Positions 5,735 through 17,498 of a stretch of DNA of 31,389 nucleotides are shown here, one piece after another (positions within the stretch are counted from its first letter, which is position 1; each line of letters opens with the position of its first letter). This DNA comes from a virus. The DNA is taken from the IMG/VR virus record IMGVR_UViG_3300045977_000211, positions 1 through 31,389 of that record. One strand, given 5' to 3'. Made by a program: the position numbers and the translations under genes. The notes below the pieces were generated by a model. That model ran no database searches and was not told where the DNA came from. It saw nothing but the letters and a program-made list of their open reading frames with translations.

Positions 5735-7138
5735 CTACTCCGCGCGGACGACGATCAGGGACTGGCCCGTCACGGAGTCGAGCCGGGCGTTGTAGCCCGG
5801 GTAGCGGCAGTGGTTCTGGTAACGCTTGCGGTACCAGCCCTCGAAGCTATCGCGGCCCGAGCTGCCCGTGCCGACGCGCACGAGAATCGAGCCGTCCTCC
5901 TGCACCCACTCACCGGGCGAGGCCTGATAGCGGACCCAGCCGCTGTTCTCCTCGTCAATGAGCATCATCACGTCGAGCGGGAAATCCCGAATCGGCGTGA
6001 CGGGCACTTCGCCGGCCGTGACGTCCATCTGCTTGAACGCCTTGGTCAGCACGTCGGGATTGCTCAGCGTGGCCTGGACGCTGTAGCGGCGGTCGGGCTG
6101 GGCCAGCTTGAGGTAAAGCCGCCGTGTCGAGTGATGCGCCAGGATGCGCGTGATGCGCGATCCGAGCTTCTGGTCGAGCACGTCCGACACCTGCTGGAGT
6201 AGATCCTCGGAGAGGCTGCCGGTGCCCGCCTTCACGTAGGACTGATACGCCCCGTAGATCGAGCGGTCCACGTTGAAGTAGTTGTTGCGGATGGTCCCGT
6301 CGTCGACGAGCGCCATCATGCCCCACGCGGCCTTCTCCCACGACGTGTCCACGACGTCCGTGACGGAGCTGTTCGCCGCCTGGACGATGTAGTCGTTGTC
6401 GGCCACGGTGCCGCCGGGCGCGGCGTCGAGCGTGATCGAGGCGCCCGAGCTCGCGCACGAGACGACCTTCCGGATACCGGAGCGCAGCACGCCGGTCGCC
6501 GGATTCACGAAGCCCACGAACATGCCGGGGCGAATAAAGCGGTTGCCGAAGTTCGACTGCGTGAGGCCGCCGGGGTTGTCGATGGCGATCGTGGCGGAGC
6601 CGGGGGCGCCGTTCACGTAGGCGAGCACGCCGCGCCCGTCAAGGGTGAGCGCCGCCTCCTCCATCCGCGCGATGTCCTTGATCAGCTTGTTCATCTCGTT
6701 GGTGCGCGCGGCCTTGAATGCGCCCTTCGAGCTGCGGCTGTCGTGGATCGCTTCCGACGTCAGGCGCACGCGCGCCATGAGCTTTCGCTGGCCGATGCGC
6801 ACCTGCACGTTGCCCTGGGCGCCGGCGTCCGCGAACGCGCCGTCCTCACCGACCCACATGGGGGAGGTGTTGCGGGTGACGTCCGCGGTGTAGACGACTT
6901 CCCGGCCGGCGAACTCGACGGTTTCGGGCTTGAGCAGATCGCTCAGCGGATTGCGGTTGTTGGTCTGGTCCGCGACGAAATCTTCGTAGTAGTCCTTGTA
7001 GATGCCGTCGATGGACTGGGTGTCGGCGCCGGCCATGCCGATGACGACGGGAACGGAGAGGGCCGCCGGGAGCAAGCCCAACGCCCAGAGCGTCAGGGTG
7101 ATGCCGGCGAGCCAGTAACGGAGACGGGTGCTGTTCAC
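5735..7138 (-). CDS. Major capsid protein (HK97-fold type)
   Basis: 467 aa. The portal-scaffold-capsid order and sequence support the call: an N-terminal arm with SIDGIYKDYYE and NNRNPLSDLL (residues 42-69), RKLMARVRLTSEAIHDSRSS, a long central body, and PLDVMMLIDEENSGWVRYQ plus YNARLDSVTGQSLIVVRAE at the end. It forms the icosahedral shell. The start is GTG 7138, because an AGGAGG ribosome site that overlaps the scaffold stop lies 10 nt upstream; ATG 7036 has no such site. With this start the protein opens with a hydrophobic stretch (residues 8-34, LAGITLTLWALGLLPAALS) resembling a signal or membrane segment, unusual for a capsid protein. Confidence 0.85.
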   Translation of the reverse strand: MNSTRLRYWLAGITLTLWALGLLPAALSVPVVIGMAGADTQSIDGIYKDYYEDFVADQTNNRNPLSDLLKPETVEFAGREVVYTADVTRNTSPMWVGEDGAFADAGAQGNVQVRIGQRKLMARVRLTSEAIHDSRSSKGAFKAARTNEMNKLIKDIARMEEAALTLDGRGVLAYVNGAPGSATIAIDNPGGLTQSNFGNRFIRPGMFVGFVNPATGVLRSGIRKVVSCASSGASITLDAAPGGTVADNDYIVQAANSSVTDVVDTSWEKAAWGMMALVDDGTIRNNYFNVDRSIYGAYQSYVKAGTGSLSEDLLQQVSDVLDQKLGSRITRILAHHSTRRLYLKLAQPDRRYSVQATLSNPDVLTKAFKQMDVTAGEVPVTPIRDFPLDVMMLIDEENSGWVRYQASPGEWVQEDGSILVRVGTGSSGRDSFEGWYRKRYQNHCRYPGYNARLDSVTGQSLIVVRAE

Positions 7139-14097: not shown

Positions 14098-14445
14098 TCA
14101 GCGGCCCAACGCCTTCCAGGCGGCGATCTCCCGCCGTTCCATATCGAGCGCCATCGCGCGCAGCTCCTCGGCGGCGACGTCGAGGAAGTTGGGTGAGGGC
14201 GGCTGGCGTGACCGTTCGAGCAGTTCGGCGGAGATCCGCACCCGGGCCATGAGGTAGCGCATCGGCACCACGACCTGCGTCCAGTCGAGCGTGGGACACG
14301 CGGGGGTAACGCCGACGAAGGCGGGCAGCGGCGGGGCGGCCAGGGCGACGCCGGCGGCCGCGAGGCCGAAGAAGAAGCGCCGGCGGGACGCGCGGACGGC
14401 GCAGGCTCGACAGCCAATGATGGGCACGTCATGCGCGCAGCTCAT
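14098..14445 (-). CDS. Small protein with twin-arginine-like signal and N-terminal Cys/His cluster
   Basis: 115 aa, ATG overlapping the previous stop (ATGA) with GGGAGG nine bases upstream. The N-terminus MSCAHDVPIIGCRAC has C3, H5, C12 and C15, a possible small metal site. It is followed by SRRRFFFGLAAAGVALAAPP (residues 20-39), a match to the Tat signal pattern S-R-R-x-F-hydrophobic, then PLPAF. The mature part has two helices (WTQVVVPMRYLMARVRISAELL and DVAAEELRAMALDMERREIAAW). The Cys/His cluster before the twin arginines is odd for a true export signal. Function unknown. It pairs with the next gene upstream, which carries a similar signal. Confidence 0.6.
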   Translation of the reverse strand: MSCAHDVPIIGCRACAVRASRRRFFFGLAAAGVALAAPPLPAFVGVTPACPTLDWTQVVVPMRYLMARVRISAELLERSRQPPSPNFLDVAAEELRAMALDMERREIAAWKALGR

Positions 14446-14810
14446 TCGCAGCCGCCTCCCAGAAACGCGGCGTTGACGCCAAGACGCCAAACGGCGCGCG
14501 GCGGCTGTTCCGGCGGCGGCTCGGCGGCCCAGTCCGCGGCGATGAACAACGAGAGGCTGTTTCGGTTGTTGCACATCTCCACAACCACGGGCTCGTAATA
14601 CTCCTTGAGGATCTGGTCAATCGAGGGGCCCGTCATCAGGCGGTCGACGTCGGCCGCCGTGAACGTCACGTCGGCAATCTCCTGCAGCGTCGGGGCGACG
14701 ATGAGGCCGGCGGCGGCCGTGGCGCCGAGAAAGAGAAAGCGGCGGCGCGACAGGCGCGGGGGCGGCTCCTCCTCCTCGCTCGGGAGCCAACGACGGAGGC
14801 GAATCAGCAT
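14442..14810 (-). CDS. Tat-like signal fused to a capsid-arm-like segment
   Basis: 122 aa. After an acidic/proline lead comes LSRRRFLFLGATAAAGLIVA (residues 20-39), a good twin-arginine-type signal. Residues 63-90 (SIDQILKEYYE, NNRNSLSLFI) align without gaps to residues 42-69 of this phage's major capsid protein, 15 of 28 identical by my count. The C-terminus (RAVWRLGVNAAFLGGGCE) is short, so the rest of a capsid protein is missing. It could be a partial capsid paralogue, a minor head protein or an assembly modulator. ATG 14810 lacks a visible ribosome site. The stop overlaps the next gene. Confidence 0.65.
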   Translation of the reverse strand: MLIRLRRWLPSEEEEPPPRLSRRRFLFLGATAAAGLIVAPTLQEIADVTFTAADVDRLMTGPSIDQILKEYYEPVVVEMCNNRNSLSLFIAADWAAEPPPEQPPRAVWRLGVNAAFLGGGCE

Positions 14811-14895: not shown

Positions 14896-15444
14896 TCAGC
14901 TCTCCGGGGTGGGGTCCGGATTCGAGTCGGCCAGGGCCTTGGCCGAATCCACGACGCCCTGGACGTTCGCCTGCAGCGTCTCGAGCTCGGTCGAGATGGC
15001 CGCGAGCTGCGCGGCGGTCGCGCCGCCCTCACCCGTGGGAATCGAGTCCTTGATGCGCTGGATGTCCGCCGCGATGTTCTCCAGCGACGGGGCTATCTCT
15101 CCGACCGACGTTTTCAGGGCCGCAATCTGGGCCTGAATCGCCTCAACGGTCATACGAACCTCCGCGAGAATCTCGCTCAGCGTAGCCACCCGGGACAGCA
15201 GGACCCGGAGCATGGCGGCTTCCTGGCCGCCGAACGAGGAGGGGGCGCCATGCTGGAACGCGGCCTCGAAGGCGCGGGCATTCTCCAGCGTATCGAGGAC
15301 GAAAAACGGCCGGTCGGCACCGAGAATGAACATCTCCCGCGCGTCTCGGGGGTCCCGCCGGCGCCCCGGGCCGAACGCGACGATACACTCCGGCCGGACG
15401 AGGATGGACCCCTGCTCGGTGGCGAGTTCGGCAAACCCCTGCAT
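14896..15444 (-). CDS. FlbD-like domain with coiled-coil tail
   Basis: 182 aa. ATG 15444 has GGAGG five bases upstream and is preferred to GTG 15465, which would place a parS-like site inside the gene. Residues 1-65 (QGSILVRPECIVAFGPG, MFILGADRPFFVLDTLENAR) follow the pattern of small phage proteins resembling the FlbD fold: a ligand-like strand, a P-x-x-I-V-A motif, then strand and helix. Residues about 76-135 and 145-170 form coiled coils. Such proteins recur among phage structural genes but their role is not established. A virion or assembly accessory function is inferred. Confidence 0.55.
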   Translation of the reverse strand: MQGFAELATEQGSILVRPECIVAFGPGRRRDPRDAREMFILGADRPFFVLDTLENARAFEAAFQHGAPSSFGGQEAAMLRVLLSRVATLSEILAEVRMTVEAIQAQIAALKTSVGEIAPSLENIAADIQRIKDSIPTGEGGATAAQLAAISTELETLQANVQGVVDSAKALADSNPDPTPES

Positions 15445-15457
15445 CTGGGCCTCCGGG

Positions 15458-15473
15458 TGTTCCACGTGAAACG
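15458..15473. promoter_or_regulatory. parS-like ParB-binding site
   Basis: TGTTCCACGTGAAACG matches the conserved bacterial parS consensus TGTTNCACGTGAAACA at every defined base except the last. It is centred on CACGTG and lies in the 39-bp gap between two minus-strand genes, not in coding sequence when ATG 15444 is used. A ParB-like protein is encoded at 22069-23466. It could load that protein or the host ParB. Confidence 0.6.
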
Positions 15474-15483
15474 GTGGAGTCGG

Positions 15484-15711
15484 CTACACCACCCGCCAGT
15501 CGGTCGCCAGGAGGTCGGTCTGGGACGCGAGCCACGGCACGCGGTCGCCCTGCACCGTCGTGATGTAGATATACGGCAGGGTCATCTTCGAGTGGGTGTC
15601 GGGGACTTGCAGGGTGAGCCGCTGATTGGGGCCGTTCCAGCCGGCCCGCTGCACGGACTGTCCGCCCCGGAGGGCTGTCAACGCTTCGCCGAAATCCATC
15701 GCCGTCTCCAT
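15484..15711 (-). CDS. Tad2-like (DUF2829) Thoeris anti-defence protein
   Basis: 75 aa. MDFGEALTALRGGQ (residues 5-18), RAGWNG (22-27), an internal strand (MTLPYIYITT) and the ending VPWLASQTDLLATDW (58-72) fit the DUF2829 family. Members of that family include Tad2, which binds and sequesters the cyclic ADP-ribose-type signal made by Thoeris TIR proteins. The length is typical. GAGGAG precedes the first ATG (15711). A second in-frame ATG lies at 15699 after a tandem duplication of GAGACGGCGATG, so two starts are possible. It is the first gene of the leftward block. Not all DUF2829 proteins have been shown to be anti-defence. Confidence 0.75.
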   Translation of the reverse strand: METAMDFGEALTALRGGQSVQRAGWNGPNQRLTLQVPDTHSKMTLPYIYITTVQGDRVPWLASQTDLLATDWRVV

Positions 15712-15896
15712 CGCCGTCTCCTCTGCTCCGAAAAAGGGCGCTCCCGAACGTGCCGGTTGGGTTATGAGCCGCCAGCGGAGCCGCGCCCGGGACCCGCCCG
15801 TCGAGGCGTCCCGCCCGGGAGCCCCCGGGTGAAGGCGCGACGATAGCGCAGCGCCTCCCAGGCCGTCAACGGGAAACCCGACCGTGCGCCACTCCG

Positions 15897-15908
15897 GAAC
15901 AGAACCGG
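15897..15908 (+). repeat. Direct repeat GAACAGAACCGG, copy 1
   Basis: Identical 12-mer recurs at 16057-16068. Both copies are followed by a short spacer and GAAC (GCGATCGAAC and ATATTGAAC), extending the similarity to about 21 bp. Confidence 0.5.
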
Positions 15909-15937
15909 GCGATCGAACGGCGATCCTGTCTCACCCC

Positions 15938-15948
15938 GGCACACTCGG
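15938..15948 (+). repeat. Direct repeat GGCACACTCGG, copy 1
   Basis: Recurs at 15979-15989, 41 bp downstream. Both sit in a larger similar unit starting CACCC and containing TAACG with CCGG downstream. Confidence 0.5.
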
Positions 15949-15978
15949 CGCGTGATAACGCCCGGTTTGCTCCACCCA

Positions 15979-15989
15979 GGCACACTCGG
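15979..15989 (+). repeat. Direct repeat GGCACACTCGG, copy 2
   Basis: Second copy of the 11-mer at 15938-15948, roughly four helical turns away, as is usual for cooperative regulator sites. Confidence 0.5.
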
Positions 15990-16056
15990 TAACGGCCGGC
16001 AGAGCAATAGAACGCGCGCGCGGCCGCGCGTGCGATGGAGAACTAGCTGTATCGAA

Positions 16057-16068
16057 GAACAGAACCGG
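16057..16068 (+). repeat. Direct repeat GAACAGAACCGG, copy 2
   Basis: Second copy of the 12-mer at 15897-15908, within an A+T-richer stretch just before the TCCCCCAT repeat block. Confidence 0.5.
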
Positions 16069-16085
16069 ATATTGAACCTGAACCA

Positions 16086-16130
16086 GGGGGATGCTATCCC
16101 CCATCGCTCCCCCATCGTATCCCCCATGCG
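16086..16130. repeat. Phased TCCCCCAT iterons with adjoining dyad
   Basis: GGGGGAT-GCT-ATCCCCC (16086-16102) is a perfect 7-bp inverted repeat. Its right arm begins a run of three direct repeats: TCCCCCATCG at 16097 and 16108 and TCCCCCATGCG at 16120, spaced 11 and 12 bp, about one helical turn. This is the pattern of an operator or initiator-binding iteron array. Confidence 0.55.
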
Positions 16131-16301
16131 ATGCCCCTCCAAACAAAGAGCGCGAGAGACTCAAGTTCCCCACCACCTGCCCCGTCCGAAGGAAACGGGA
16201 CTCCAACCCGACCCGCAGAGCCACCAGACAGCCCGCTCAGCTCGTTGTAACGCCTTCCAGAGCGATTTCCGAGGGCGACGACCCCCCGGCTTCGCCACCC
16301 C

Positions 16302-16327
16302 CGCTGGAACGGGACTCCGTGCCAGCG
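16302..16327. other. Stable stem-loop in the central region
   Basis: CGCTGG and CCAGCG pair, then after one A/G mismatch ACGG and CCGT pair around the loop GACT. The 11-mer AACGGGACTCC within it also occurs at 16194-16204. It may be part of a small RNA, an origin structure or a remnant of a tRNA-like element. Confidence 0.35.
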
Positions 16328-16517
16328 CGGGGTCCCCCGGGGGCGTGCCAACCGGGCCGGCTGGCCAGAGCCGAGGCCGAGGCCGGCGCGCTCGAAAACG
16401 TGCCAACCGCAAGCGATTGAGGCCACAAGATGTAGGGGGCGAAGGGACAACGCACGAGCGCAGGCGAAACAGGGCCAAAACGCAGGGCTTCTCTCGTGGG
16501 TCTGATAATGGGGGTTA

Positions 16518-16528
16518 CGTTTACTCGG
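16518..16528 (+). repeat. Direct repeat CGTTTACTCGG, copy 1
   Basis: Identical 11-mer recurs at 16673-16683. The first copy follows GGGGTTA, and the second lies just after a related GGGTTACACTCG, so the surrounding area is also similar. The bases GATAAT just upstream (16504-16509) could serve as a -10 box, but no good -35 is visible. Confidence 0.4.
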
Positions 16529-16636
16529 CTCCACGTCGCCGGCAGGAGCGCCGAGGCCGAGCGGCGAGGGGGCCAGGGCGGGCCGAGTGTGGACGGGCGG
16601 ACGCGCCGCGCTCCGGATTACAACATTGGGTCTTGT

Positions 16637-16649
16637 GTTAGGGCCTAAC
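16637..16649. promoter_or_regulatory. 13-bp palindrome upstream of the rightward operon
   Basis: GTTAGG-G-CCTAAC has perfect 6-bp arms around one central base, 56 bp before the first rightward start codon. It is a candidate operator for an early repressor or activator. No regulator is identified. Confidence 0.4.
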
Positions 16650-16672
16650 CTTGGGTTACACTCGCCGTCCGG

Positions 16673-16683
16673 CGTTTACTCGG
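16673..16683 (+). repeat. Direct repeat CGTTTACTCGG, copy 2
   Basis: Second copy of the 11-mer at 16518-16528, ending about 20 bp before the first rightward start codon. Confidence 0.4.
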
Positions 16684-16704
16684 TTCATGACTGGAGCGTG
16701 ACGC

Positions 16705-17277
16705 ATGGCAGGCGAATCAATCGACGGGCGGGTGGGACAAGGGTCTGAGACGGGATGCACTGTCAGGCCGGCGGCGTGGCTGGCGGGTGTGGACGGGGCA
16801 GAGCTGGCGGCGTGGCTGGAGATGAAGCTGAGCGAGCGGTGGGAGCTGACCGAGCTGGGCCGCGCGGCGCTGCGCGCCGAGGACAAACCGGGGGGCGCGG
16901 CGGCCGGCCTGGGGGGCGCGTGTGAGCGGTGCGGGCGGGCGCGGGCGGACGTGATGACGGGGCGGCGCGGGTTCGAGGCGGCCGCGCTCTGTGGGCCGTG
17001 CTACGCGCACGCCCTGACCTCTCCCGGGGAACGGTGGGCCGAGCTGCGGGAGGCGCGCGCGTTCGCCCGGCTGCACTTTGGCGGCGCGGCGGCGTTCGTC
17101 CAGCTGTGCGCGGAGTGCGGCCAGCCGGCCGCGTCCCTGCCACTCTGCGAGGCGTGCCGGGCGGCCATCCTCAGCGAGCCGGCGCAGCCGGCGGCCGATG
17201 AGTGCGCCCGGTGCGGCGTGCGGCTCGCGTCCGAGGAGTGGGGCCTCTGCGCGCCCTGCTGGCGGGGGGTGCTCTGA
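16705..17277 (+). CDS. Protein with three tandem zinc ribbons
   Basis: 190 aa, first gene of the rightward block, ATG preceded by GACTGGAGCGTGACG. The N-terminal 60 residues contain a predicted helix pair (ELAAWLEMKLSERWELTELG, GRAALRAED). Three CxxC-CxxC modules follow: C73/C76 with C96/C99, C135/C138 with C148/C151, and C167/C170 with C182/C185. Each should bind one zinc. Zinc-ribbon arrays usually contact nucleic acid or RNA polymerase. As the first early gene it might reprogram host transcription, but that is inference. The stop overlaps the next start as TGATG. Confidence 0.65.
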   Translation: MAGESIDGRVGQGSETGCTVRPAAWLAGVDGAELAAWLEMKLSERWELTELGRAALRAEDKPGGAAAGLGGACERCGRARADVMTGRRGFEAAALCGPCYAHALTSPGERWAELREARAFARLHFGGAAAFVQLCAECGQPAASLPLCEACRAAILSEPAQPAADECARCGVRLASEEWGLCAPCWRGVL

Positions 17278-17498
17278 TGCCTCGCACCAGTTACGAGTCG
17301 CAGCTGCTGGCGGCCGCGCGCCGCGTGGGCCGGCTGGAAGGCCGCGCCCGCCGGCTCCGCGCCGAGGTGAAACAGACGGAGGCCGAGCTGCGGCACGAGC
17401 GCAAGATGCTGCGCGCGCTGGCCGCCAGCACGCCCGACGTCGAGCGCCGGCCCGACGCGCCGCCGCTGCGCATCTTCGGAGAGGAGGCGGCGCGATGA
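17277..17498 (+). CDS. 73-aa coiled-coil protein
   Basis: 73 aa. A continuous charged helix (LLAAARRVGRLEGRARRLRA, EVKQTEAELRHERKMLRAL) makes most of the protein, then a short tail PPLRIFGEEAAR. The ATG overlaps the previous stop (TGATG), and its stop overlaps the next ATG (ATGA), so it is translated within the early operon. Likely an oligomer; function unknown. Confidence 0.6.
   Translation: MPRTSYESQLLAAARRVGRLEGRARRLRAEVKQTEAELRHERKMLRALAASTPDVERRPDAPPLRIFGEEAAR

Follow-up and report, generated by a model that had tools for sequence, protein, structure and literature searches.

Partial capsid protein paralogues behind twin-arginine-type leaders in an uncultivated virus suggest a link between capsid parts and the cell membrane

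To our knowledge, HK97-fold shells are for the most part regarded as cytoplasmic assemblies complete in themselves, and we know little of where their assembly starts beyond models such as T4. In these shells the N-arm lies on the P-domain and spine helix of a neighbouring subunit and the E-loop reaches over the neighbour's spine helix. The N-arm helix and the E-loop/spine helix of phi12 capsids are in contact across subunits, and phi12 capsid assembly is redirected by a capsid protein homologue, Ccm of SaPIbov5 (PMC8569155). In T4, the gp20 portal is the initiator of head assembly and gp40 a viral chaperone, according to the part of the T4 account cited here (PMC9958956).

The window, the whole stretch of DNA analysed here, comprises the 31,389 bases of an uncultivated virus record and encodes its own terminase, portal and major capsid protein (MCP). 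Its head module lies on the minus strand and runs leftward through small terminase, large terminase, portal, scaffold-like protein and MCP. The MCP matched PHROG 14242 (E 2e-20) and the podovirus major capsid family NF033394 (E 9e-20, under the model cut-off). An AlphaFold model made from 39 relatives reached a pLDDT of 74.6, and Foldseek matched it in the PDB to the HK97-fold capsids of SU10, HK97 and A-1(L). Feature coordinates are collected in Table 1.

ORF1 encodes MLIRLRRWLPSEEEEPPPRLSRRRFLFLGATAAAGLIVA and, further on, SIDQILKEYYEPVVVEMCNNRNSLS; the MCP counterpart reads SIDGIYKDYYEDFVADQTNNRNPLS. A preliminary description made from the sequence alone had proposed that ORF1 carries a copy of the capsid arm behind an export or membrane signal, and had counted 15 identities in an ungapped match with the MCP. 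The count was correct, and BLASTP returned 15/25 identities, 35 bits and a pairwise E of 2e-7. The score of 33.1 bits against the MCP compared with at most 27.7 in 2000 shuffles of the same protein. A profile search against capsid arms had been named as the test of the proposal, which survived it: an N-arm HMM of ~85 MCPs found ORF1 at E 2.8e-5 among 22,915 ORFs. In the MCP model the shared piece falls on the N-arm helix (helix 40-62), and GC by codon position in ORF1 (0.69/0.50/0.85) was coding-like.

The preliminary description took ORF1 to be solitary and overlooked both the second MCP piece, in ORF2, and the hydrophobic leader of the MCP itself. ORF1 is instead one half of a two-gene cassette, with the ORF2 start inside the ORF1 stop (ATGA overlap). 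ORF2 was 36% identical to the MCP over 59 aa (E 1e-5), and the spine HMM matched it at E 2.8e-5. Pairwise, the margin over shuffles was small (30.8 bits versus 28.9), and the case for ORF2 therefore rests on profiles and relatives. A predicted model of ORF2, of low overall confidence, ran through two strands to a short and then a long helix, the order of the E-loop strands and spine helix in the MCP. In an all-against-all comparison of the window ORFs, the only cross-matches at E<=1e-3 were ORF1-MCP and ORF2-MCP. Both proteins thus share segment homology with the HK97-fold MCP family, and each covers one part of MCP residues 42-169 rather than the complete fold (N-arm, E-loop, P-domain, A-domain); for ORF1, this agrees with the earlier remark that the rest of the fold is absent. 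Chance similarity was excluded by the 2000 shuffles, the HMM searches over 22,915 ORFs and recurrence in relatives. Judged by sequence, ORF1 and ORF2 are partial MCP paralogues, with strong homology.

Table 1. Positions in the window of the cassette, its capsid protein counterparts and a neighbouring gene
Feature	Position	Strand	Basis or remark
MCP, HK97 fold	5735..7138	-	PHROG 14242, NF033394, AlphaFold model and Foldseek; source family of both pieces
MCP hydrophobic N-terminal leader, 34 residues	7037..7138	-	GTG start with AGGAGG upstream
MCP residues 42-69	6932..7015	-	Counterpart of ORF1 piece
MCP residues 112-169	6632..6805	-	Counterpart of ORF2 piece; strands 110-127, spine helix 138-165
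ORF2	14098..14445	-	115 aa; Tat-type leader and MCP E-loop strand/spine-helix piece
ORF2 leader SRRRFFFGLAAAGVALAA, residues 20-37	14335..14388	-	Sequence; related to ORF1 and G002 leaders
ORF2 residues 57-115, similar to MCP 112-169	14101..14277	-	Pairwise match and spine HMM
ORF1	14442..14810	-	122 aa; Tat-type leader and MCP N-arm piece
ORF1 leader SRRRFLFLGATAAAGLIVA, residues 21-39	14694..14750	-	Sequence
ORF1 residues 63-90, copy of MCP residues 42-69	14541..14624	-	N-arm helix
Tad2-like, Thoeris anti-defence	15484..15711	-	PF11195, E 3e-23; two genes upstream of cassette

Both leaders show a twin-arginine consensus followed by a hydrophobic stretch (SRRRFLF in ORF1, SRRRFFF in ORF2), with related leaders in the mimic genes of three relatives (G002, G037 and G034). 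The leaders of ORF1, ORF2 and the G002 gene are mutually related; the ORF1-G002 comparison scored 76 against 37 for the best of 300 shuffles. Of the twin-arginine-like signal claimed for ORF1 the motif held, since SRRRFLFLG fits the Tat consensus by eye, but its TIGR01409 score of 8.3 bits fell short of the curated cut-off of 16.7. ORF2 had no match to this model. Because neither protein passes a Tat model, the Tat nature of both rests on motif and relatedness. The pair thus resembles Tat substrates (TIGR01409 / PF10518) in the [S/T]RRxF motif and hydrophobic segment, and the G002 and G037 proteins do pass TIGR01409, but ORF1 and ORF2 differ in scoring below the model cut-offs. We know of no Tat cargo that is a capsid protein.

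The podovirus capsid family of NF033394 and PHROG 14242 is the source of both pieces, but ORF1 and ORF2 lack its A-domain and most of its P-domain. As with Ccm, a relative of the capsid protein is encoded besides the main capsid gene, and the N-arm and spine-helix region is central to the Ccm effect (PMC8569155). Ccm is a full-length HK97-fold satellite protein and has no membrane leader, whereas ORF1 and ORF2 are phage-encoded short pieces that carry Tat-type leaders. In T4, head assembly starts at the inner membrane with phage-encoded help from the gp20 portal and gp40, a likeness that on the side of the cassette is proposed; compared by description, the cited part of the T4 account mentions neither capsid-derived pieces nor Tat-type leaders (PMC9958956). 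The preliminary description had held an arm mimic behind an export signal to be undescribed, and our literature searches, with most subscription journals outside their coverage, found no protein of this kind. From sequence, we rate the joining of a Tat-type leader to a capsid piece as an architecture of a new kind, with a putative function.

Between them, ORF1 and ORF2 have both sides of one inter-subunit contact, so that binding to the MCP or to each other is expected. Our preferred reading, to which we give a probability of about 0.38, is that the cassette encodes capsid-interface mimics that are targeted to the inner membrane and bind there to MCP or proheads. In its favour count the two MCP-derived pieces behind related leaders in overlapping genes, the recurrence in relatives close to the terminase, the Tat and capsid model matches of relatives' proteins, and the hydrophobic leaders on the MCPs of the window and several relatives. 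An MCP N-terminal fragment would have become fused behind a Tat-type leader, and gene duplication would have left one copy with the N-arm helix and the other with the E-loop strand and spine helix. This history of duplication and splitting is suggested by the shared leaders and by L074 of one relative, where a single protein has an N-arm piece and a possible spine-like segment (not significant). The RR-hydrophobic leader would sit in the inner membrane, the products would attach at the lattice interface to MCP or to one another, and nascent shells may be held or regulated there. ORF1 and ORF2 might then serve as membrane-side factors in the assembly, packaging, capture or regulation of shells. 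The preliminary description had suggested three roles for ORF1 (tethering of proheads to the membrane, minor capsomer, poisoning of foreign capsid assembly), between which sequence does not discriminate. The cited part of the T4 account offers a precedent in prohead initiation at the inner membrane (PMC9958956). The main difficulty concerns the side of the membrane on which the body would lie: real Tat transport would bring the capsid piece into the periplasm, away from assembling heads. The Tat scores below curated cut-offs, a relative with both pieces and no leader (L068), and the many relatives in which no mimic was detected also count against membrane-targeted mimics.

The architecture recurs in relatives. 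In the record whose MCP is 90% identical to that of the window (G002), one gene joins the SRRRFLFLG leader to an ORF2-type piece; as independent support from NCBIfam models, its product matched NF033394 at E 1.7e-4, below the cut-off of that model, and passed TIGR01409 at threshold (16.8 bits; cut-off 16.7). Presence in close relatives, on which the preliminary description had staked its claim, was therefore borne out in part: G002 lacks the N-arm body, but has a Tat-leader gene with the neighbouring MCP piece. A second relative (G037, L083:1803-2072) joins GRRSFLR to an ORF2-type piece (E 6e-10 to its own MCP) and passed TIGR01409 with 18.7 bits. A third (G034, L074:1254-1568) has NRRGFLA ahead of an N-arm piece that matched the MCP of this record at E 3e-7; a separate record (G063) encodes the identical protein. 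G031 encodes a leaderless protein of ~247 aa upstream of the terminase (L068:2389-3132, +), in which a spine piece (E 0.004) precedes an N-arm piece (E 0.002), both against its own MCP and in swapped order. A weak spine-like piece was seen in G044 (L119, E 0.31). In all the other records the mimics are encoded some 0.6 to 3.3 kb upstream of the large terminase, those of G002, G037 and G034/G063 at 1-3 kb. An assembly chimera is unlikely in view of this recurrence, which spans several metagenome assemblies and includes the L074 protein with one and the same sequence in two records. G037 also has a second Tat-like gene (L083:2069-2509, +; MITRRMFVASLGALSAALSIS) with an ATGA overlap with the mimic; a third MCP piece in this gene was considered and rejected (E 0.27 among six sequences, not significant).

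Detection was patchy. No mimic was detected in most relatives whose region upstream of the terminase is sequenced. A profile of three ORF2-type proteins run over 50 whole related records matched an MCP-length frame in 49/50, plus the G037 mimic itself. Searches of reference phages and plasmids found no relative of the mimics, and a search of viral contigs with ORF1 found no match. A DNA-pattern scan of viral contigs for SRRxFL in one codon choice gave no further Tat plus capsid case among the matches listed, and a genome-contig scan for the host yielded nothing beyond a Verrucomicrobia MAG with a 22% match to the MCP. This patchiness, together with pieces that differ between phages and with fast divergence (ORF2 and its G002 homologue are ~45% identical, their MCPs 90%), would be expected of relics, that is, of MCP fragments captured behind a leader module by recombination and without present function. 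We consider relics unlikely, if the least unlikely of the rival explanations, since several lineages have mimics at the same site, the frames are open and coding-like in composition, genes overlap in two lineages (ATGA) and the pieces are restricted to interface elements.

Hydrophobic N-termini are also found on MCPs of this group. The internal ATG start of the window MCP, at MAGADTQ, has no ribosome site, and such an internal start is absent in several leader-bearing MCPs. The window MCP and those of L003 and L004 have hydrophobic leaders of 34-37 residues. Leaders that are hydrophobic or signal-like but unrelated in sequence occur in L068, L083, L093/L094, L262, L263/L264, L285 and L286; those of L071, L076 and L087 are shorter or less hydrophobic. 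In most relatives the MCP starts directly at M(A)GADTQ or near it, without a leader. By hand count, a mimic was present in 4/8 leader-bearing records versus 1/~37 other records whose sequence extends 2 kb or more upstream of the terminase. Mimics may thus be commoner where the MCP has a leader, an association that is suggestive only because the records are related and not independent. These MCP leaders would suit minor virion components, whose MCP pieces would let them join the shell during assembly and whose leader would work within the particle or at DNA entry instead of as an export signal, as would the nature of the pieces as lattice-contact elements and the grouping of their genes with head genes. 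Such a role appears improbable: the related leaders keep the twin arginine and the following aromatic residue, which is more specific than a hydrophobic tag, and the leader is separable, as the L068 protein, which has none, shows.

Several other features of head genes were observed in these records. In L041/L043 and L086 a further kind of module, a tag such as MSTWINTKVVIDMATGDILENEGYLYSGPVAEAA, lengthens the MCP at its N-terminus. The MCP N-terminus (AGADKQALDAIFKEV) is encoded by an ORF of its own further upstream in L061 (9257-9397 and 10001 onwards, +), and possibly in L063; the remainder of the L061 MCP resumes ~600 bases later, as if an intron interrupted the capsid gene. Beside the MCP in G002, a gene with a signal-peptide-like start (MRRVLMFVAASLLAVVGIAAVQPACAGA) encodes virion-like repeats (L013:16161-16826, -). 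L017 encodes an 821-aa large terminase (14963-17428, -) with a long, intein-like insert right after Walker A (SGRRGGK...HNTKGG).

A tree of the spine segment (~60 residues) grouped three mimics with distant MCPs on long branches and does not settle their origin. In direct comparison, ORF1, ORF2 and the L074 piece were as close to their own MCP as to any, and the L068 and L119 pieces had better scores with MCPs of other phages than with that of their own phage. The mimics are thus not consistently closest to their own MCP, which weakens self-specific and foreign-specific readings alike. The L068 and L119 scores would fit a capsid poison, with fragments that would cap or block the assembly of foreign capsids or, in excess, of the phage's own shell, and Ccm is a known capsid homologue directed against a helper phage (PMC8569155). 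For ORF1, ORF2 and L074, self-poisoning would be expected, and an export leader would take the fragment out of the cytoplasm; we rate poisoning the least probable of the explanations considered.

Thoeris ThsB1/B2, CapRel and Lit are host systems triggered by capsid protein, and membrane-held MCP interface pieces could be decoys that occupy such sensors without activating them. Staphylococcal Thoeris senses hexameric capsid protein, with escape residues at the subunit interface (PMC11312562), and in the cited part of the CapRel account the MCP activates CapRel (PMC9712102). The Tad2-like anti-Thoeris gene near the cassette also points in this direction. Conserved linkage to Tad2 was rejected, as a Tad2-like gene was found in 0/49 related records, other mimic-bearing ones included. 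With this absence, with the cassette adjoining the terminase and not an anti-defence cluster, and with cytoplasmic sensors ill-matched to a membrane or periplasmic location, decoys seem unlikely, ranking just after relics.

Membrane-targeted capsid-interface mimics remain our preferred reading of ORF1 and ORF2. A broader proposal is that head assembly is organised at the host membrane by capsid N-termini in this group, with non-homologous leaders on many MCPs and with Tat-leader proteins that present isolated N-arm and spine-helix surfaces to capture or release shells. We regard this extension as doubtful, below the cassette itself in likelihood and above any of the rivals. If true, membrane-organised head assembly would be a pathway of HK97-fold assembly not previously described. 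The union of a membrane or export leader with shell-holding elements in small proteins would make these products natural assembly handles, inhibitors or immune decoys, and proteins of the ORF1/ORF2 type are small enough for expression, deletion and testing. With hydrophobic leaders also on the MCPs of these phages, the membrane question lends itself to direct testing. Collectively, these data suggest that parts of the capsid are linked to the cell membrane in a way not described before.
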